Source: Gemmatimonas groenlandica (GTDB lineage Bacteria > Gemmatimonadota > Gemmatimonadetes > Gemmatimonadales > Gemmatimonadaceae). Taken from it: a DNA stretch of 64,000 nucleotides. The notes beneath the pieces were generated by a model that was given only the letters and a program-made list of their open reading frames with translations, had not been told where the DNA came from and did no database searches. This document shows, in pieces, positions 40,942 through 54,595 of the stretch. The first letter of the stretch is position 1. The number at the start of each line of letters is the position of its first letter. The stretch is taken from contig NZ_CP053085.1 in assembly GCF_013004105.1 (NCBI RefSeq), positions 1,798,001 to 1,862,000 on the forward strand, in the 5' to 3' direction. The position numbers and the translations under genes are program-made.

Positions 40942-41058
40942 CGCCGGCACGCCCGGGACGGAGCATTCGCCATTCGCGGGGTAGAGAAGGAGATACCGTG
41001 ACGACCGTGGCTGGCGTGTCGCATGCCCAGCCGACCACCGATTCGACCAACACGACCA

Positions 41059-42747
41059 ATGCAGAGTACTCCGTTCGCTGTGCGTCCTTCTCGTCCACTG
41101 GCGCGCCTGCTACCGCTCGCGCTGCCTCTGGCACTGCCGTTCGTGCTTGCGCTTGGCGCCTGTGCGCGCGCCGGCGTGACCACGGCGCCCGAGCCGGCGA
41201 TGCAGCCGGTGATGCAGGCCCCTATTCAGGTGGCGCCACCGCCGCCAACCCCGGCGGCAGCAGACACGGCGCGGGCCGATTGGCAGCGCCTCGACTTCGA
41301 CACCGATCGCGTGATGGGTGTGGGGTCCGAACGCGCGATTCGTGAGTTGCTGGCCTCGCGTGCGCCGCGTCGTCGCGTGGTGGTCGCGGTCGTAGACGGT
41401 GGCGTCGATACCGCGCACACCCGGCTCACCGGCTCCTTGTGGAAGAACCCGCGCGAGATCGCCGGCAACGGCAAAGACGACGATGGCAACGGCGTCGTCG
41501 ATGACGTCTTCGGTTGGAATGCCCTCGCCACCGCCGACGGGACACCGGTGCGCTACGACACGTTCGAACTCACGCGCTTGTACGCGGCGTGTCGCAATCA
41601 GCCCGCCGGATCGCTGACGCCCAAGCCGTCCACCACGGCCTGCAGCGATCTCGCGTCGGCGTATCGCGACAAGGCCAAGGAAGTGAAGTCGACGCTGCTG
41701 CAGGTGGAGAACATCGACGAGATCCTGCGCACCGTCGAGCGCCTGCTCGGCACGGCCCTGAACGGTGCGCCGGTTACGCGCGCGTCGGTCACCGTACTGC
41801 GTCCGGTCTCAGCCGACGTGGAGGAAGCCAAGCGGATGTGGCTGCGGCTCGATGCCGATGGGCTCAATGCCGGGGAGATCGCGAAGGCGCGTGAGGCCTA
41901 CGACTCGCAGGCGAAGTACGCGCTCGACACGCTGTTCAATCCACGCTCGCCCCAGCGCGTGGTGGGCACGCGCGACGTGACCGGCCCCGACGCGAGCCAC
42001 GGCACGCACGTGGCGGGCATCATCGGCGCGCTGCGTGGTGATGGTGCCGCGATGCAGGGCATCGCCCCGAACGTCGACATCATGGCCGTTCGCGCCGTGC
42101 CCGATGGCGACGAGCGCGACGTGGACGTGGCCCGGGCGATCCGGTACGCGGTGGACAACGGCGCGCAGATCGTGAACATGAGCTTCGGCAAGGGCTACTC
42201 TCCCGCGAAGGCGTCGGTCGATTCCGCGGTGCGCTATGCGGAATCGAAGGGCGTGCTGCTGGTGCATGCGGCCGGCAACGAAGGCGAGAACAACGACGAG
42301 ACGCCGTCATTTCCCACGCCCGTGCTCAGCGGCGGAACGCGCGCCGCGAATTGGATCGAAGTGGGCGCGTCGAGCTGGAAACCGCTGGCGTCGTTGCCGG
42401 CCGAGTTCTCGAACTATGGCCGCGAGCAGGTCGACCTGTTTGCGCCGGGCGTCGACATCCTGTCCACGGTGCCGGGCGGTGGCCTCAAGCGCGAGAGCGG
42501 CACCAGCATGGCCGCACCGGTGGTGTCGGGCGTGGCCGCGTTGCTGCTGGCGTACTTTCCTGAGCTGACGGCGATGCAGGTGCGTGACATTCTGTTGGAG
42601 TCGGTGCGTAAACTGCCCGACCTCGAGGTACGTCGACCGGGTGATGGATCGAAGGTGAAGTTCACCACCCTGTCGCGCACCGGTGGCGTGATCGATGCCT
42701 ATGCCGCCGTGAAGCTGGCCTTGCAGCGCGTGGCGCCGCGGCCGTAG
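41059..42747 (+). CDS. Subtilisin-like S8 serine protease, lipoprotein
   Basis: Encodes 562 residues from the ATG at 41059. The leader LLPLALPLALPFVLALGAC ends in a lipobox Cys, so it is probably anchored to a membrane. The S8 triad is D113 (VVDGGVD), H314 (SHGTHVAG) and S483 (GTSMAAP), with the oxyanion Asn in HAAGNEGE. About 200 residues separate Asp and His, much longer than in plain subtilisins; the insert begins with a GNGKDDDGNGVVDD calcium-like loop and contains helical stretches (KEVKSTLLQVENIDEIL). It follows the CarboxypepD_reg gene with a 117-bp gap. It should be an envelope protease. Confidence 0.93.
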   Translation: MQSTPFAVRPSRPLARLLPLALPLALPFVLALGACARAGVTTAPEPAMQPVMQAPIQVAPPPPTPAAADTARADWQRLDFDTDRVMGVGSERAIRELLASRAPRRRVVVAVVDGGVDTAHTRLTGSLWKNPREIAGNGKDDDGNGVVDDVFGWNALATADGTPVRYDTFELTRLYAACRNQPAGSLTPKPSTTACSDLASAYRDKAKEVKSTLLQVENIDEILRTVERLLGTALNGAPVTRASVTVLRPVSADVEEAKRMWLRLDADGLNAGEIAKAREAYDSQAKYALDTLFNPRSPQRVVGTRDVTGPDASHGTHVAGIIGALRGDGAAMQGIAPNVDIMAVRAVPDGDERDVDVARAIRYAVDNGAQIVNMSFGKGYSPAKASVDSAVRYAESKGVLLVHAAGNEGENNDETPSFPTPVLSGGTRAANWIEVGASSWKPLASLPAEFSNYGREQVDLFAPGVDILSTVPGGGLKRESGTSMAAPVVSGVAALLLAYFPELTAMQVRDILLESVRKLPDLEVRRPGDGSKVKFTTLSRTGGVIDAYAAVKLALQRVAPRP

Positions 42748-42802
42748 GTATTTGGCACAGCACCGTTCTGAGAGGTGTCCGCCTCACCACCACCAACATC
42801 GA

Positions 42803-43354
42803 ATGCAACGCATGCGAATGACTGCGCGCTCGACAGCCACATCCTCGGCCACGCAGATTCGGCGACTGGTTGCCTCTGGCACCCTCATCGCGGCGGCGAT
42901 GCTGACCACGCGAGTCGCCGCGGCACAGGCCACGAAAGGCGCGCGCGTGACCTCGGCGGCGGGAGTCGGCGCTGCTCGTGACTCAGCCGACGCACTGGCC
43001 ACCTTTCGCGAGAACATCGCCGCGATACACACCCGTAACAAGCCGCGCTATCTGGCCACCTACGTGCACACGCCGCAGCTGGTCCGGCATTCGCCGACCG
43101 CCCTCGAAACTGGCTACGAAGGGTGGCCAGCGATCACCGAGAGTGCCTGGCCGGACACGCTGATCGTGAAAGAGATGCGCGTGGTCCCGGTCGCTCCTGG
43201 CGTGGTATACGGCTACTACCGCTACATCGGCGTGCCCGCGCCCGGCGACACGCTGACGGGCGTATCGACACGAGTGTTCGTGCGTACGTCACAAGGCATG
43301 CGCATCACCGTGACAGCATCGTGGAACGATGCGCCGCCAGTGACAAAACGCTAA
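42803..43354 (+). CDS. Secreted NTF2/SnoaL-like (DUF4440-type) protein
   Basis: Encodes 183 residues from the ATG at 42803; one at 42812 is also possible. The signal region is RLVASGTLIAAAMLTTRVAAAQ. The mature part is an NTF2-like fold (FRENIAAIHTRNKPRYLATYVHTPQL, YEGWPAITES, VVYGYYRYIGVP) ending RITVTASWNDAPPVTKR. Such domains bind or convert small molecules, or act as accessory folds. A second copy of its last 18 codons is found at 44279, beside the intact ankyrin gene, showing that this gene once had a paralogue there. Ligand and role are unknown. Confidence 0.75.
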   Translation: MQRMRMTARSTATSSATQIRRLVASGTLIAAAMLTTRVAAAQATKGARVTSAAGVGAARDSADALATFRENIAAIHTRNKPRYLATYVHTPQLVRHSPTALETGYEGWPAITESAWPDTLIVKEMRVVPVAPGVVYGYYRYIGVPAPGDTLTGVSTRVFVRTSQGMRITVTASWNDAPPVTKR

Positions 43355-43361
43355 TCCCGCA

Positions 43362-43418
43362 TCAGCAGCTCGTGCACAAGTGGTTATTCTTCGCGCCCAG
43401 CTTCTCGAGCAGTTCGAT
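43362..43418 (-). pseudogene. C-terminal fragment of an ankyrin-protein paralogue
   Basis: Read on the minus strand this gives IELLEKLGAKNNHLCTSC and a stop. The intact ankyrin protein ends IELLEKMGAKNNHKCKSC. Homology ceases sharply at 43418. It is a remnant of a second copy, lying tail-to-tail with the intact NTF2-like gene, as the full pair would. Confidence 0.85.
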
Positions 43419-43426
43419 CTATCATG

Positions 43427-43495
43427 GAGTCGGGCTTCGCCGAAACGCTGCGCGAGATGGAAGCGCTTGGCGGCAAGCTCGTGATGCCGATGCGG
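43427..43495 (+). pseudogene. Fragment of a VOC/glyoxalase-family gene
   Basis: The frame gives ESGFAETLREMEALGGKLVMPMR over 23 codons (quoted key part: LREMEALGGKLVMPMR). The intact VOC protein at 54197 has SGLDEKLRDVVGLGGKIVMPVR in the same place, with about 13 of 23 residues identical. The frame loses resemblance right after it. It looks like a third broken piece within the scar. Confidence 0.6.
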
Positions 43496-43513
43496 GTGCG
43501 ACGGGCGTATCCG

Positions 43514-43987
43514 CTACCGATCGTCCGTCGCCCGAAACAAATAGAGCGCCACGTTCGGAGCGCGGTACACCGATCGGGTACCACGTGTACTGAACGCGCA
43601 GACCAAGTCGTTGCCGTTCAGATCGTATGGTTTCACCTGCAAAACCAGAAACGCCGCCGCGGCTTCGACCGATTCGAACTCCTGTCCGAACGCGTTTTCG
43701 ATGAACGACTTCGGGTCCGTGATACCGGCCGCGGCAAACCCGGCCTTCGTAATACCCCACCACGTGTCCGGCGCGTCCACAGCGCTCAGCTTGATCAGAC
43801 CGAGCGATTTGGAGTCTTGAGCACATCCCGTGCTATTAACGCCGCCTTGGGTTAACCGGGCCTCCGGGTCAGCGAGCGGCACGGAGGTTGGACCGTCGGA
43901 GCAGGCCGACATCAGGGCAGCAACTCCGATGGTGAACGCAGCAAGCACACGCGGTGCCGAGAACGGGGAAACAGAGCGGTGCATCAT
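43514..43987 (-). CDS. Hypothetical lipoprotein
   Basis: Encodes 157 residues from the ATG at 43987 (a second ATG is the next codon). The signal sequence ends in a lipobox (VAALMSAC), so it is probably a lipoprotein. The mature part is small, with GLIKLSAVDAPDTWWGITKAGF and LVLQVKPYDLNGNDLVCAFSTRGT; the two Cys may form a disulphide. I do not recognise the family, though the DLNGNDLVC piece resembles calcium-like loops of small secreted proteins. It is the only apparently intact gene within the rearrangement scar and may have arrived with it. Function is unknown. Confidence 0.6.
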   Translation of the reverse strand: MMHRSVSPFSAPRVLAAFTIGVAALMSACSDGPTSVPLADPEARLTQGGVNSTGCAQDSKSLGLIKLSAVDAPDTWWGITKAGFAAAGITDPKSFIENAFGQEFESVEAAAAFLVLQVKPYDLNGNDLVCAFSTRGTRSVYRAPNVALYLFRATDDR

Positions 43988-44278
43988 CTCGAAACCTCGG
44001 GCAGGAGTGGAGGACTCTCGTCGATTTCACAGTGCGGCAACCCAAACGATTGATGGCTTTCGCCCCAAGCGCACGGTTCAACATGCCGCTTCGTGGTGCG
44101 CGCGCAAGGGCATACAAGACACGCGGTTGGCGACCTCGACCTTATTTCTGACGAGAGTCTGACGGTCGCGCCGTTCCGTCCGCTTTGTCCGCCACCGATC
44201 TCGAGTCAGGCGGTATTCGACATCAGTCGATTGACGTGACCGAGCATTCCGCCGAAGTCCTGCCGTCCCGTCGGTACG
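43988..44278. other. Intergenic part of the rearrangement scar
   Basis: This 291-bp stretch lies upstream of the lipoprotein gene and before the NTF2-like fragment. No frame in it has protein character and I see no transposase, terminal inverted repeats or tRNA. It should contain the lipoprotein promoter. Confidence 0.5.
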
Positions 44279-44332
44279 CGCATCACCGTGACGGCATCAT
44301 GGAACGATGCGCCACCGGCCACGAAGAAATAA
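44279..44332 (+). pseudogene. C-terminal fragment of an NTF2/SnoaL-like paralogue
   Basis: The frame gives RITVTASWNDAPPATKK and TAA. The intact protein at 42803 ends RITVTASWNDAPPVTKR. The fragment's stop directly abuts the stop of the intact ankyrin gene, mirroring the arrangement at 43354-43362. Confidence 0.85.
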
Positions 44333-46240
44333 TCAGCAGCTCTTGCACTTGTGGTTGTTCTTCGCTCCCATCTTCTCGAGCAGTTCGATGGTGTCGAGGA
44401 ACGGGGGAATACGCTGCACGGCACCGTTGGCCATGTCGACCGTGGTCTGACCGGTACGCGCCACCGCCATGACATCGGCGCCCTTGCTCACCAGATACGT
44501 AATCAACTCGTTGTCGCCACGCGCTGCCGCGTGGTGTAGCGGCGTGTAGCCCTTGAAGTCGCGGGCATTCACATCGGCCTTGAGTTCTTCCACGAGGAAC
44601 TTGACCGTCGGCACCCAGCTGTCTGGTGCGTGACGATGGGCGTTGGCCGCGAAGCCTTCGCCATAACCGGCACCGCTGGCCGCATGAATGGCCAGCACAC
44701 CGGGGCCGTTGTCGGGCACCGGCGGCAACCCTGACGGGTCCTTACCGGCGGCGACATCGGCGTCGAGTTCTTCCGAGCCAGGCAAGCGACCGGCCGGCTT
44801 GATGGTGGCCACGTTCGGATCGGCGCCGTACTTGAGCAACAGCTTCATCGCATCGAGATCGGTGCCGTACGCGGCGCGCCAGAACGGCGTGGCGCCGGCG
44901 GTGCTGACACTGAGCTGATCGAAGTTGTACGACATGTACCACAGGTGCTTCGTGAGTCGCACGTTCACGTCGGCGCCCGCCTTGATCAGCGCTTCCATCA
45001 GTTCGAGATACGTGACGTTCGACTGATACTGCGCCACGGGCTGCGGATACGCCGCCTTCGGCGCCCATACCACGTTGATCACCGCGTACAGCGGCGTCGC
45101 GTTTGCCGTGCTCGCGAGTTTGGGATCGGCCCCGCGGTCGAGCAGAGTCTTGGCCAGATCGAAGCGACCGTTGATCGTTGCCATCAGCAGCGGCGTGGTG
45201 CTGTCACCGGCGCTCGCGTGGTTGATCTTCGCGCCCGCCATCAGCAGCGCATTCACCGCTGCCGTCTGCCCGTCACGCACGGCGAGCAACAGGGCGGTGT
45301 TGCCACCCTTGCTGCCCACCAGATCACCGTACGACGGACCACGCTGCCGGCGATCACCAGCCGTGGGCGTGATGCGCGTGTCGGAGTTGCCGGTGGGAGC
45401 GGCACCCGCCGTCGCCGCCGACGGTGCGGGCGCAGCCGCTGCCGCCGCCGCCGACGGCGCTGCGGTGCGCGGCGTGGCCGCCGAGGCCGACGCCGTCGTG
45501 GCCGCGCCAGGAGTCGCCGCAACGGCCGTCGGCGCCAACAACGCTTCAGCCGACTTCATCGCCGCCATGCGTCGTGATCGCGTGACCAGATACGCGCGGT
45601 CCTTCTTCTCTTGCTCGGGGATGCTCTGCGTCCGCGTTTCCGCTTCGATGTCGGCGCCGCGCTTCACCAGCGCGGTAATCGCCGACACGCGATTGGCCGC
45701 CGCCGCCCACATGAGCGGCGTCTGCGAGAACGCCGCTTCACGTACGTTCACCGAGGCACCCTTGTCGACCAGCGCGTCGATCGTGGCCGCATCGCCGCTC
45801 GAGGCGGCGAAGTGCAGCGCCGAGGCGCCACCGGACGACGTGGTGGCGTTCACCTTCGCCCCCGCGGCCAGTAGCGCCTTCACCGTCTCAGCGCGTCCGT
45901 TCTGCGCGGCCAGATGCAGCGGCGTGTAGTTGCCGTTGCGCGTCACCGGATCCAATCGGGCGCCCGCAGAAACAAGCATACGGGTGGCCGCCAGATTGCC
46001 GCGTGATGCCGCCCAGTGCAGCGCGGTCATGCCATCGCCCTGCACTTCGTTCACATCGACGCCCTGCTTCAGCAGCACGCGCAGCCCGGCGCTGTCACCG
46101 CGCATGACGGCGTCCGCCAACGGGGAGTCCGACGCGGGAGTGCCGGCCGACAGCATGAGGGCCGCGCCGAGCGCCATACCCACCGTGGCCAGCCGCTTCG
46201 AGGCGCGCTGCACGACGTGTCCCGCCACCTGCTTAGGCAT
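44333..46240 (-). CDS. Exported ankyrin-repeat protein
   Basis: Encodes 635 residues. The start ATG at 46240 lies inside the end of the DUF1552 gene (8-bp overlap). The N-terminus has an export signal (RLATVGMALGAALMLSAGTPAS). About ten ankyrin repeats follow in two groups: roughly 40-220 (DGMTALHWAASRGNLAATRMLVSAGA-type units) and 310-620. An Ala/Thr/Pro-rich linker of about 60 residues separates them. Ankyrin repeats bind proteins. The C-terminus KNNHKCKSC holds two Cys that might anchor or bind metal. It belongs to the DUF1592-DUF1552 operon and may act as their envelope partner. Confidence 0.93.
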   Translation of the reverse strand: MPKQVAGHVVQRASKRLATVGMALGAALMLSAGTPASDSPLADAVMRGDSAGLRVLLKQGVDVNEVQGDGMTALHWAASRGNLAATRMLVSAGARLDPVTRNGNYTPLHLAAQNGRAETVKALLAAGAKVNATTSSGGASALHFAASSGDAATIDALVDKGASVNVREAAFSQTPLMWAAAANRVSAITALVKRGADIEAETRTQSIPEQEKKDRAYLVTRSRRMAAMKSAEALLAPTAVAATPGAATTASASAATPRTAAPSAAAAAAAPAPSAATAGAAPTGNSDTRITPTAGDRRQRGPSYGDLVGSKGGNTALLLAVRDGQTAAVNALLMAGAKINHASAGDSTTPLLMATINGRFDLAKTLLDRGADPKLASTANATPLYAVINVVWAPKAAYPQPVAQYQSNVTYLELMEALIKAGADVNVRLTKHLWYMSYNFDQLSVSTAGATPFWRAAYGTDLDAMKLLLKYGADPNVATIKPAGRLPGSEELDADVAAGKDPSGLPPVPDNGPGVLAIHAASGAGYGEGFAANAHRHAPDSWVPTVKFLVEELKADVNARDFKGYTPLHHAAARGDNELITYLVSKGADVMAVARTGQTTVDMANGAVQRIPPFLDTIELLEKMGAKNNHKCKSC

Positions 46241-47621
46241 GGGAGTTCAGATTGAGGGCACCCGTGCTGTCACCGAACGTGGTCAGATCGTTCATGCCGA
46301 GCGTGTGCATCATGCTGAGCATCGCATTCGCCATCGGCGTACCGTCCGGCGCCTTGATGTGCATGTTGCCGGCGAGACGATTTTCGGCCTTGCCGAGCAG
46401 CATGAGCGGGCAGCGGCGATGGTTGTGCACGTTCGGGTCGCCCATCGGCGAACCGTAGATGATCATCGTCTTGTCGAGCATGTTGCTCTCGCCTTCCTGG
46501 ATGCTCTTCAACTTGTCGAGCAGATACGGCAGCATCGACACGTGGTACTTGTTGAGCAGCTGGAAGTCGCGCACGCCCTTCTCACCGCCGCCATGATGCG
46601 ACGCCGGATGGAAGCCCTTGTCGGTACCGCTTTCCGGATAGGTACGGCTGGTGCCGTCGCGGCTCATCTTGAACGAGAACACGCGCGTGACGTCGGCGGC
46701 GAAGGCGAGCGCCTGGATGTCGAACATCAGTTCGACGTGTTCCTTGAACGAATCTGGCACGCCAGCGGGCGCGGCGGCGAGCTCACGCTCCTCGCCGCTC
46801 GTGTTGCGCGCTTCGACCATCTGAATGCGGCGCTCGACCTCGCGGATGTCCGTGAGGTAGCGATCCATGCGGTGGCGGTCGTCGGCATCGAGGCCACGCG
46901 ACAGTGACGTCATCTGCCCCGACACGAAGTCGAGAATGCTGCGGCGCGAGCGACGACGGTCGGCGCGCTCGGCGCTGTTGCCACCCACACCGAACAACTT
47001 CTCGAAGGCCACGCGCGGATCGCGAATGACCGGCAGCGGCTCGGTGGGCGACTTCCAGCTGATGGAGTCGGTGTAGACGCAGGCGTAACCGTACGAGCAG
47101 CCACCGGCCTGATCGACGTTCTCGATGCACAGCTGCATGGACGGGATCGGCGTCTCCTGGCCGAACCGCTGCGCGTACAGCTGATCGAGCGATGTGGCGA
47201 TCTTGACGTCGGAGCCTTCTGTCTGCTTCGGGTGCGTCTGCGTGAGGAACGTGGCGCTCGAACGGAAATGGTCGCCACCGATCTCGGGCGGAGCGGCTGG
47301 CTCGGCTTCGCGCACGTCGGTGTTGCTGATGATCGTCATGTACTCGCGGTACTTGTCCAGCGAAGACAACGCCGACGGCGACAGATCGAAGTCACGACCA
47401 GTCGCCGCGGGCGACCAGAAGTTGAGCTTCGAGCCGATGTCGTTGGAGCCGGCGGCGCCGTGCACCATTTCGATCGCAATCAAGCGGGGCGCCGCGTTGG
47501 CCGAGCCCATGATGCTCTGGCCACGGGGGACCATCGCGTTCAGGTACGGCAGCGCGATGGTGGCGCTGAGGGACTGCACGAACTGTCGGCGAGGCATCGC
47601 CTTTCCCGTCAGGAACTGCAT
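46233..47621 (-). CDS. DUF1552-family exported protein
   Basis: Encodes 462 residues from the ATG at 47621. A Tat-like start is visible (MPRRQFVQSLSATIALPYLNAM). The body matches DUF1552 (IAIEMVHGAAGSND, FWSPAATGRDFDLSPSALSSLD by key parts, GGDHFRSSATFLT, YGSPMGDPNVHNHRRCPLMLLG). This family almost always sits next to a DUF1592 protein in Planctomycetes, Acidobacteria and similar phyla, and its fold resembles sulphatase/phosphatase-like DUF1501 proteins. The GDxNVHNHRRCP segment is a plausible metal site. It lies 31 bp after the DUF1592 gene and overlaps the ankyrin gene. The substrate is unknown. Confidence 0.92.
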   Translation of the reverse strand: MQFLTGKAMPRRQFVQSLSATIALPYLNAMVPRGQSIMGSANAAPRLIAIEMVHGAAGSNDIGSKLNFWSPAATGRDFDLSPSALSSLDKYREYMTIISNTDVREAEPAAPPEIGGDHFRSSATFLTQTHPKQTEGSDVKIATSLDQLYAQRFGQETPIPSMQLCIENVDQAGGCSYGYACVYTDSISWKSPTEPLPVIRDPRVAFEKLFGVGGNSAERADRRRSRRSILDFVSGQMTSLSRGLDADDRHRMDRYLTDIREVERRIQMVEARNTSGEERELAAAPAGVPDSFKEHVELMFDIQALAFAADVTRVFSFKMSRDGTSRTYPESGTDKGFHPASHHGGGEKGVRDFQLLNKYHVSMLPYLLDKLKSIQEGESNMLDKTMIIYGSPMGDPNVHNHRRCPLMLLGKAENRLAGNMHIKAPDGTPMANAMLSMMHTLGMNDLTTFGDSTGALNLNSHA

Positions 47622-47652: not shown

Positions 47653-50229
47653 TCAGCGGCTTTGGCCGACTGATGCCCCGCTCGCGGGGAGTGCTGCCTG
47701 AGCGACCGGAACCATGCGCATCCGGAACGCGTCGCTCTTCACCACACCCAGCACGACATCTTGAATTCGATAGTTCTTGGTCCGCACCGACGCTTCGATC
47801 TTACGGATGGCCGGACCGTCGGAGTACTCCACGCGCCGGCCGACGGCGTAGGCCATCAGGTTCGTCACGAACGTGCGGACCAGCGGCACCGGACGCTTCA
47901 GCAGTACCTGCTGCAGCTCACGCGGGCCGGTGATCTTGGTGCCGTCGTAGTAATCGCCGCGCGTATCGAGCGGCATGTTGTTTTCCTTGATGCGCCACTG
48001 CCCGATCACATCGAAATTGTCGAGCGCCAGTCCGATCGGATCGATGAACTGGTGGCAGGAGCGGCACGACGCATTGGCGCGGTGCTCTTCCATGCGCTCG
48101 CGCGTGGTCAGCATGCGTCCCTCCTTGCTGGCGCCGGTCACTTCGAGATCGGGCACGTTGGGCGGCGGCGGTGGCGGCGGTGAGCCCATGAGCACTTCCA
48201 TGACCCACTTGCCACGCAGCACCGGTGAGGTGCGATTGCCCTGCGAGGTCAACAGCAGCACGCCGCCGTGTCCCAGAATGCCGACGCGGTTCTTGTCGGT
48301 GTAGGTTACGCGACGGAAATCCGTGCCCACCACATCGGTCATACCGTAATGTCGGGCCAGGTCTTCGTTCACGTAGGTGTAGTCCGCCGTGTACAGATCG
48401 AGCAGGCTACGGTTCTCGCGCACCAGGCTGGCCACGAACAGCTCCGTTTCCTTCTGCATGTTCTTCGCGAGCTGCAGATTGAACGCGGGGTACAGCAGCG
48501 GGTCCGGATGGACCTTTTCGATGTCCTGCAGGCGCAGCCACTGCGCGGCAAAGCGCGTGGACAGCGCATCAGCGCGCGGATCGGCCAGCATCCGCTTGGT
48601 CTGCGCGATCAGCACCGTGGTATCCGTGAGCAGGCCGCGCTGCGCCACGCTCGTGAGCGTCGAGTCGGGCAGCGTCCCCCACAGGAAGAACGACAAGCGC
48701 GACGCGAGATCGGTGGAGCTGACCGCCACCTTCGAGCCTGGCTTGGCGGTCACGGCCACTTCATCGGCGCGGAACACGAAGTACGGGCTGGCCAGAATCG
48801 CCTCGACCGCACCGCGCACGCCGCTTTCGAAACCGCCCGACTTCGCCTCTTCGTCGTAGAAGCTCATGATCGCCTTGCGATCGCTGACCGTCAGCGGCCG
48901 GCGATAGGCCTGCGAGCCGATGCGATTCACGATGCGTTCGGCGCAGGGACGCTGCTCGGCAGCGCTGAGCGGACGGCAGCTGAAGATGCGCCGGCGACTC
49001 GGCGTGTCGGACACCCCCGTCGGGTTGAACGGGCCGGTGACCGTGAACAGCTTCATGTGGCCCTGAATCGTGATCGCGTCCTGAATGCCGATCTGCGTGT
49101 CGGGCAGGCTGTTCCCGATCGGCGTCATGAGATCCTCGACCGGCCCTTCGAACGTGCGCACGTACGCGGCGGCGACCACACGCGGGCCGGCCTTCACGGT
49201 GATCGGCACCGTCTTGAGGTCGAGCCCATTCGGCTCACTCTCGTGCATGCCACGATCGATATCGAGCAGTGCCACGCGCTCGCCGTCCACCGAGATCTCG
49301 ATCTTCTCATCGAACGGCGCGTTGCCGCCCACCAGCTGACCGATCGGGGTGGAGTGCAGCGACACCGAGAACACGTACGCGCCATCGGCCGGGAAATAAT
49401 GCGTGGCCGCGCCGCCGCCGCGCGTGCCGATCGGCGCGTCGCCTTCATGCCCGTTTTGGTTCGCGAGTCTCGACACCTTGAACGTGGTGGTCGACACACT
49501 CGCCTTCGCATCGCCGATCGCCAGCCGGCTGATGGCGTTGGCCGCATCGAGATACGACTCGAGCACCGTGGCCGACGGGATCTGCACGTCGGCGATGTTA
49601 TCGAAGTTCGCACTCTTGGTATCGAGCGGCAGCCACGACTCGGCGTTCACGCTCACCGTGAGCAGGTCCTTCACCGCGCGCTCGTACTCGGCACGGTTCA
49701 ACCGCTGGAAGGAGCGACGACCGACATCGGGCTTGCGCACGGCGATCGCGTCCATCTGACGTTCGAGCGTTTCGGTGAGCACATCGAGCGTGTCGCCAGC
49801 CGGACGCGGACGCCCCGGCGGCGGCATCATGCCAGTGCGCAGCTTGCCGATCATCTTCTCGGCAATGATCGGCGAGGTGGCGCCGACCGTGGCGAGGTCG
49901 AAGGACTGCAGCGAGAAATTGCCCATCTTGCGCTGATCGCTATGGCACCCGGCGCACGTCTTCTTGACGACGTCGTTGAGCACGACCGGGGCCATGGTGC
50001 GCGTGGTGCGCGCGTGCGCTCCAATGCTTGGTCGCATTTCGTCGAGCGTCGCGCGATAGCGCGCGAGTGGCGCGAACGGCGATGCGAAGTAGCTGGCCGA
50101 CGACATCACGGCCGACGCCGCGGTCGGCTGCGGAGCAACGGACTCGACACGCGAATCAGCGCGATCATAACTGCTCGCCGCGATCGCGAGGATGATCGAG
50201 CCAGCGCCAAGTGCAACGACAGATTTCAT
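47653..50229 (-). CDS. DUF1592-family exported c-type haem protein
   Basis: Encodes 858 residues from the ATG at 50229. The signal is SVVALGAGSIILAIAAS. The usual domain chain of planctomycete cytochrome proteins is seen: a cytochrome c motif CAGCH (92-96), DUF1587, DUF1595 (RRPLTVSDRKAIMSFY), DUF1592 (LASRLSFFLWGTLPDSTL), DUF1588 (GGVLLLTSQGNRTSPVLRGKWV) and DUF1585 at the C-terminus. A second CxxCH (CRSCH, 722-726) lies in ANASCRSCHQFIDPIGLALDNF. Both can bind haem c covalently. The protein probably moves electrons for an oxidation of an organic polymer or small molecule together with DUF1552. It heads the trio. Confidence 0.94.
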   Translation of the reverse strand: MKSVVALGAGSIILAIAASSYDRADSRVESVAPQPTAASAVMSSASYFASPFAPLARYRATLDEMRPSIGAHARTTRTMAPVVLNDVVKKTCAGCHSDQRKMGNFSLQSFDLATVGATSPIIAEKMIGKLRTGMMPPPGRPRPAGDTLDVLTETLERQMDAIAVRKPDVGRRSFQRLNRAEYERAVKDLLTVSVNAESWLPLDTKSANFDNIADVQIPSATVLESYLDAANAISRLAIGDAKASVSTTTFKVSRLANQNGHEGDAPIGTRGGGAATHYFPADGAYVFSVSLHSTPIGQLVGGNAPFDEKIEISVDGERVALLDIDRGMHESEPNGLDLKTVPITVKAGPRVVAAAYVRTFEGPVEDLMTPIGNSLPDTQIGIQDAITIQGHMKLFTVTGPFNPTGVSDTPSRRRIFSCRPLSAAEQRPCAERIVNRIGSQAYRRPLTVSDRKAIMSFYDEEAKSGGFESGVRGAVEAILASPYFVFRADEVAVTAKPGSKVAVSSTDLASRLSFFLWGTLPDSTLTSVAQRGLLTDTTVLIAQTKRMLADPRADALSTRFAAQWLRLQDIEKVHPDPLLYPAFNLQLAKNMQKETELFVASLVRENRSLLDLYTADYTYVNEDLARHYGMTDVVGTDFRRVTYTDKNRVGILGHGGVLLLTSQGNRTSPVLRGKWVMEVLMGSPPPPPPPNVPDLEVTGASKEGRMLTTRERMEEHRANASCRSCHQFIDPIGLALDNFDVIGQWRIKENNMPLDTRGDYYDGTKITGPRELQQVLLKRPVPLVRTFVTNLMAYAVGRRVEYSDGPAIRKIEASVRTKNYRIQDVVLGVVKSDAFRMRMVPVAQAALPASGASVGQSR

Positions 50230-50439
50230 CCCAAAGCCTCGGGGCGGGGCGGGAACAGCAGTGCCGGGCGGGAATAACAGACGGACACGTCTATGAAGAG
50301 TGTTCCCCGCCCAGACGTCGAGCAAGGGTCCACTTACTTACGCGGACCGGTGCTAGGGCGTTGCCGGAACGCCGCTTACGTTGCGAGTCGGGGTACGACT
50401 CATCCCCGTGCCGAACGTCTTCATCTCAGAGCAACTCGC

Positions 50440-54133: not shown

Positions 54134-54196
54134 CCAGATCGCGCGCAACCGGCGTAGCTTCGCGTAGCGACAACGCGATCTCAACCGGAACTGCGC

Positions 54197-54595
54197 ATGA
54201 GCGACACCCCTGCCCCACTCGGCCGCATCAGCTGGACCGACCTCACCGTGCCCGACGCCACGGGGCTGCACGAGTTCTACACCAAGGTGACCGGCTGGAC
54301 GGCGATGCCGCTCAGCATGGGTGAGTACGACGACTACCTCATGCTCGGTGCCGACGGTGCTCCACAGGCTGGCCTGTGCCATGCACGTGGTGCGAACAGC
54401 GGCATTCCGCCGCAGTGGGTCGTGTACATCACCGTGTCGGGACTTGACGAGAAGTTGCGTGACGTCGTCGGACTGGGCGGCAAGATCGTGATGCCGGTGC
54501 GTAGCATGGGAAAGACTGGGCGGTATGCCATGATTCAGGATCCGGCCGGCGCCGTATGCGCGCTGTTCGAGACCGTCACGGCCGAGACGACGTAA
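54197..54595 (+). CDS. VOC-superfamily (glyoxalase-like) protein
   Basis: Encodes 132 residues from the ATG at 54197. It shows the VOC pattern of two beta-alpha-beta-beta-beta units: ISWTDLTVPDATGLHEFYTKVTGW, then YITVSGLDEKLRDVVGLGGKIVMPVR by key parts and MIQDPAGAVCALFE. VOC proteins are metal-dependent lyases, dioxygenases or resistance proteins; one or more of the usual metal ligands is not obvious here. It is cytosolic. It ends one base before the flavoprotein gene, so the two are probably co-translated. A broken relative is found at 43427. Confidence 0.85.
   Translation: MSDTPAPLGRISWTDLTVPDATGLHEFYTKVTGWTAMPLSMGEYDDYLMLGADGAPQAGLCHARGANSGIPPQWVVYITVSGLDEKLRDVVGLGGKIVMPVRSMGKTGRYAMIQDPAGAVCALFETVTAETT

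Follow-up and report, generated by a model that had tools for sequence, protein, structure and literature searches.

The term 'insertion with long target duplication' was coined from two Helicobacter pylori genomes (Nobusato et al., 2000; described or cited in PMC1643837, PMC3154945, PMC3031569, and PMC2869330), and in this species such insertions are often associated with restriction-modification genes (PMC1643837). Transposed genes of Arabidopsis are often flanked by direct repeats of a genic target, for which integration of a circle by recombination is the explanation preferred by the authors (Woodhouse et al., 2010; PMC2869330). Here, we describe a locus of Gemmatimonas groenlandica TET16 at which the tail-to-tail border between an NTF2-like gene and an ankyrin-repeat gene is present twice, with 854 nt of other DNA between the two copies. 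The locus lies in a window of 64,000 nucleotides (bases 1,798,001-1,862,000 of the single contig of 5,179,092 bp that makes up the genome), and window positions are used throughout. The best explanation appears to be two successive insertions at a tail-to-tail gene border, the second with long target duplication, a reading to which we assign a probability of roughly 55%.

The locus resembles the H. pylori class in that the insert lies between long direct repeats of its target, that relatives without the insert exist, and that it was detected by genome comparison. It differs from the class in its cargo, which consists of an orphan lipoprotein gene and a gene scrap without restriction-modification genes, and in its repeat, which spans the ends of two convergent genes, has diverged to about 80% identity, and has an undivided target that was not seen. 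A further parallel is the acquisition of heterologous DNA by non-homologous end joining (NHEJ) in bacteria, for which an experiment was reportedly carried out (Dupuy et al., 2019). As in that setting, Ku and LigD, both encoded in TET16, could seal a stray piece of DNA into a break; unlike the experiment, the TET16 case is read from a scar, and its link to Ku from the presence of the gene. With the transposed Arabidopsis genes the locus shares a moved gene between direct repeats of a genic target and an undisrupted orthologous site in sister species, whereas those are plants with many cases and TET16 offers one (PMC2869330).

The duplicated gene border

The gene order at the site is an S8 (subtilase) peptidase gene (41023-42747, plus strand; PF00082, E 3.7e-51), the NTF2-like gene (42803-43354, plus strand), gene debris with a lipoprotein-like gene on the minus strand, and the ankyrin-repeat gene (44333-46240, minus strand; PF00023, PF12796). 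The tail-to-tail junction of the NTF2-like and ankyrin genes was found at 43295-43418 and again at 44273-44389 (117-124 nt). The two copies are 79% identical in the NTF2 part and 90% in the ankyrin part according to the repeat search, and 79.8% identical over 119 columns in blastn; a local alignment of the two reaches a score of 126, whereas none of 500 shuffled versions of the right copy exceeded 25. In the left copy the NTF2-like gene is whole, with its stop codon at 43352-43354, and the ankyrin gene is a stub of 18 codons plus stop (43362-43418, minus strand). The right copy shows the reverse, a stub of 19 NTF2 codons plus stop (44273-44332, plus strand) next to the whole ankyrin gene. Both the repeat and this reciprocal arrangement had been proposed in a sequence-only reading of the window, and they are borne out, at very nearly the positions given there, by the alignments, coordinates, and stop codons. 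Of the 117 positions that could be compared, 19 differ between the copies, and there is one indel, 7 extra nt (43355-43361) between the stop codons of the left copy that are absent from the right copy. An ATC triplet stands on either side of these 7 nt, an arrangement in keeping with a deletion by slippage. The 854-nt insert (43419-44272; G+C 61% vs. 65% in the window) sits exactly between the copies, and no further remnant of either gene occurs beyond them. The assembly is a gap-free PacBio and Illumina hybrid (PMC7844134).

The two copies seem to derive from one border, since both NTF2 ends read 'NDAPP', which is found in none of eight outgroup genes ('NDAV' in six, 'NDVP' in one, 'PDTL' in one), and since the border is the same in both. 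The left ankyrin stub differs from the local intact gene at 6 of 57 nt, from its six orthologues at 6-10, and from the three paralogues in the same genome at 15-18. Both halves of the repeat would thus trace back to this locus or to one closely related to it.

The insert contains one complete gene. A VOC/glyoxalase-like gene scrap of about 25 codons (43421-43495, plus strand), cut at both ends, is identical at 14 of 25 residues to the protein of window 54158-54595, which matches PF00903; the scrap (29 aa) itself has no match to a Pfam model. It is followed by a putative lipoprotein gene for 157 aa (43514-43987, minus strand; open reading frame call), whose product carries the sequence LMSAC, which we take to be lipobox-like. 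The sequence-only reading had placed a VOC fragment and one lipoprotein gene between the junction copies: the lipoprotein-like gene stands, and the scrap resembles a VOC protein in the pairwise match, with no Pfam match of its own. The lipoprotein has no homologue in the 40 relatives (41 genomes including TET16 were searched), no Pfam or NCBIfam match, and three weak relatives among 394 other genomes of the phylum, in G191 (39% identity), G301, and G327. No match to any of the ten other query proteins of the window was found at E 1e-3 in the neighbourhoods of these three. It may be regarded as a member of an orphan lipoprotein-like family, with a relative at L095:917-1360. There is no indication that the scar as such has a function: the NTF2-like and ankyrin genes are complete, and the insert adds one orphan lipoprotein.

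The site and its genes in relatives

The orthologous S8 and ankyrin genes of six other genus members (G011, G015, G017, G042, G044, and G045) adjoin tail to tail with a gap of 11-70 nt, measured between the ends of the aligned coding parts, and neither an NTF2-like gene nor a lipoprotein gene nor a stub occurs at the locus. In a seventh genome (G024) the ankyrin gene is cut by the contig end; the remaining genus genomes were not examined individually for this adjacency. The identity of the flanks to these relatives is even up to the site (86-93% for the nearest bins, 78-85% for G011), and this comparison gave no sign of recombination in the flanks. Six uninterrupted relatives and even flanks indicate that all of 42748-44332, which comprises the NTF2-like gene, the stubs, the VOC scrap, and the lipoprotein gene, is extra in TET16. 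The sequence-only reading had suggested seeking strains without the insert; the six relatives lack it and have a single ankyrin end and no stubs, but they also lack the NTF2-like gene, so that an undivided NTF2/ankyrin target was not seen. A strong hairpin (GCGGCCGATC...GATCGGCCGC) is visible in the sequence of the S8/ankyrin gap in five of the six relatives (L044, L045, L089, L090, and L091), G011 being the one without it. This hairpin is missing in TET16 (window 42748-42802), and transcription may therefore run from the S8 gene into the NTF2-like gene.

The NTF2-like gene (longest open reading frame from 42752) has a conserved domain (alignment A1) and no Pfam match up to E 10. Its structure model is of low confidence (predicted local distance difference test, pLDDT, 50), and its structural matches are led by NTF2-like folds, the best being AtzH, the CaMKII hub, and LinA, at E 7.7e-05 and weaker. 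The gene is single-copy in TET16 and present in seven of 30 genus genomes, TET16 included, and a scan of the species-genome collection gave eight NTF2 loci, two of them in additional genomes (S07.Bin085 and Prado135). No protein match to S8, ankyrin, DUF1552, or DUF1592 was found at E 1e-3 at the NTF2 loci of eight other genomes, where flanks of up to about 6 kb on each side were searched (L102 and two G009 contigs being cut on one side). A common setting is confined to G006, G009, and G018, and no flanks are shared among the remaining loci in blastn. A move within TET16 from the place that the gene has in G041 found no support, as the G041 neighbourhood besides NTF2 gives only short scattered TET16 matches. 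In G013 the NTF2 sequence ends a 600-codon open frame that also encodes a beta-lactamase domain (L036:5169-6971; PF00144), and so forms the C-terminal domain of a beta-lactamase-family protein; in others it is standalone. In three genomes of another family (G030, G032, and G038) an NTF2-like domain lies within open frames of 570-593 codons.

The intact ankyrin gene, right neighbour of the site, belongs to a set with a DUF1552 (HXXSHH) gene (46233-47621, minus strand; PF07586) and a DUF1592/1588/1585/1587/1595 gene (47653-50325, minus strand; PF07631, PF07627, PF07624, PF07626, PF07637). TET16 has four paralogous sets of this kind (G000:C1 near 695 kb, 1.84 Mb, 2.717 Mb, and 3.494 Mb). Since the genome has one NTF2-like gene, the three other sets are all without it. 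This bears on the conclusion drawn in the sequence-only reading, that the NTF2-ankyrin pair formerly existed in at least two copies and moves as a unit. Six relatives have the site without NTF2, TET16 has no such pair outside the site, and a search of the genome and its relatives for other intact NTF2 and ankyrin sets found none, the NTF2 loci of the eight other genomes being without an ankyrin set. As NTF2 was not found beside the ankyrin set at any of these loci, a mobile NTF2-ankyrin cassette is unsupported.

Competing histories of the site

In the favoured history, the comparison with relatives suggests that an NTF2-like gene would first have entered the short S8/ankyrin gap and replaced the hairpin, giving the order S8 and NTF2 facing the ankyrin gene; the NTF2-like gene occurs alone at several places in the genus. 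As the scar suggests, the NTF2/ankyrin border would then have been broken, with a stagger of about 118 nt between the two ends. A stray piece of DNA, about 854 nt long and carrying the VOC scrap and the lipoprotein gene, would have been joined between these ends, and both overhangs would have been filled in. The border would thereby have been copied, leaving NTF2 whole on the left and ankyrin whole on the right, each with a 3' stub on the opposite side, and the stubs would afterwards have drifted free of constraint. One staggered-break event would account for an insert placed so precisely between the copies, outside which neither gene has left any other trace. Unequal crossing-over in tandem was rejected as a sufficient explanation, as it would not place new DNA exactly between the copies.

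The differences between the copies are in keeping with such drift. Differences were polarized with outgroups (eight for NTF2, six for ankyrin), the commoner outgroup state deciding to which copy a change was credited. The NTF2 halves differ at 13 of 60 positions, seven assigned to the stub and six to the intact gene, and the ankyrin halves at 6 of 57, five assigned to the stub and one to the intact gene. Summed over both stubs, 5 of 12 changes are at third codon positions, where the neutral expectation is 4 (binomial p 0.55 vs. one third), as compared with six of seven in the intact copies (p 0.007 vs. one third). The stub changes include a Met (now Thr) that is invariant in all eight NTF2 outgroups and two Lys that are invariant in all six ankyrin orthologues, and the two stubs have changed about equally (7/60 and 5/57). 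This pattern would be expected of two stubs that were freed simultaneously, and it resembles drift more closely than the divergence of paralogues that had once been functional. The stubs have drifted by about 0.10 changes per site. At fourfold sites of the S8 and ankyrin genes, the Jukes-Cantor distance to G024 and to the five nearer relatives with an empty site is 0.44-0.60, which makes 0.22-0.30 per lineage. As a rough inference, about one third to one half of the time since the split from the nearest relatives would have passed since the insertion, and an insertion younger than the split is consistent with its absence from the six relatives.

Several observations weigh against this history. 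The intermediate that it postulates, S8 and NTF2 facing ankyrin without the insert, was found in no genome examined, the duplication is inferred from one genome, and a stagger of 118 nt is long. The insert is composite, and a VOC scrap cut on both sides implies more than one joining event. The counts of changes are small: the third-position share of stub and intact copies differs with Fisher p 0.15, and 12 stub changes against seven have p 0.36. The NTF2 halves differ more than the ankyrin halves, their changes are split almost evenly instead of being concentrated in the stub, and several of these assignments are weak, as they concern variable sites. If the NTF2 differences are left unpolarized, third positions account for 9 of the 13, a share that would also suit genes that diverged while functional and were truncated later. 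Finally, Ku is absent from the six other NTF2-bearing genomes of the genus (G005, G006, G009, G013, G018, and G041); Ku is thus not needed for the NTF2-like gene to move.

The third-position excess between the NTF2 halves is what would be expected if two diverged NTF2-ankyrin cassettes had stood in tandem, with the VOC and lipoprotein genes between them, and two deletions had then taken the bulk of the ankyrin gene from the first cassette and the bulk of the NTF2 gene from the second. Such a history would also account for the truncated VOC gene beside a stub. We consider it unlikely: TET16 has a single NTF2-like gene, no NTF2-ankyrin pair occurs at the eight other NTF2 loci examined, and the left ankyrin stub has altered two otherwise invariant lysines and is a copy of the local gene and not of the other sets. 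Such a merger would also require more events, namely a tandem duplication, the gain of two genes in between, and at least two deletions.

Somewhat less probable still is that a circle from a sister strain, carrying the lipoprotein gene, the VOC scrap, and a copy of the border, entered the chromosome through one homologous crossover within that border. Direct repeats of host genes around the insert are equally expected under this model and under the staggered break, and DNA uptake is conceivable, since ComEC (PF03772) occurs in 28 of 30 genus genomes including TET16. The stretch of border on the circle would have had to be just 118 nt long and truncated at either end, and the stub halves would be expected to be constrained donor alleles, yet 7 of the 12 stub changes are at first or second positions. 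Searches for a source of the insert also found no phage relative (protein), no relative among viral contigs, and no plasmid relative (DNA, whole locus).

An insert between direct repeats at a gene end could moreover reflect a transposon or site-specific integration, with the repeats as target-site or att duplications. This is very improbable: profile searches found no transposase or recombinase family in the insert, nor any restriction-modification family, and any terminal inverted repeats of the 854-nt core are no better than expected by chance, since 18 of 300 shuffles gave an equally good result. A repeat of 118 nt is also far longer than usual target-site duplications. An assembly artefact, for which it can be said solely that repeats are where assemblies fail, is scarcely credible for copies that differ at so many positions and by an indel in a gap-free hybrid assembly.

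Possible machinery and significance

For the staggered break and its repair, end joining by Ku and LigD is the likely machine, judging from the genes present. TET16 has adjacent genes for Ku (PF02735) and LigD, the latter with ligase and Prim-Pol domains (L154:6820-9866; G000:C1 near 365 kb). Ku is patchy within the genus, occurring in four of 30 genomes, and was not found in the six empty-site relatives, whose assemblies are 57-91% complete. The presence of Ku, LigD, and ComEC speaks for the means and not for their use. A bolder and doubtful proposal is that the scar is a fossil of natural Ku/LigD-dependent gene capture, in which a long-overhang break in a convergent gene pair closed around foreign DNA; neither gene would have been lost because the overhang spanned both 3' ends. 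If this were true, Ku lineages should hold more harmless insertions with long target duplication than their Ku-less sisters, and orphan genes would have a generally available way of entering bacterial chromosomes.

A scan for direct repeats of 60-400 nt at 150-6000 nt from each other covered 464 kb of TET16, which includes the extended window and amounts to about 9% of the genome, as well as 400 kb of G021. In TET16 it gave two pairs, the NTF2/ankyrin junction and a pair that was rejected as a similar scar, being a palindromic intergenic repeat; the pair found in G021 was rejected because it lies inside a protein with Ig-like repeats, as judged from its translation. With no further such scar in the scanned sequence, there is no evidence of a frequent mechanism here. 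The palindromic repeats of TET16 are about 130 nt long (GAACTGCCAAAAGCTTAGG...; G000:C1:225386-225515 and 226270-226401), 76% identical in direct and 81% in inverted orientation. They flank an outer-membrane-like gene and are perhaps part of a dispersed palindromic family of TET16.

Taken with the reservation that the undivided target was not seen, the TET16 scar appears to belong to the known long-target-duplication kind, here in a genome other than that of Helicobacter and with a cargo that lacks restriction-modification genes. Taken alone, it is an ordinary episode in the history of a genome. It provides a roughly dated example outside Helicobacter of a gene added between two genes, neither of which was harmed, and warns that repeated gene ends such as these are no proof that the adjoining genes move jointly.

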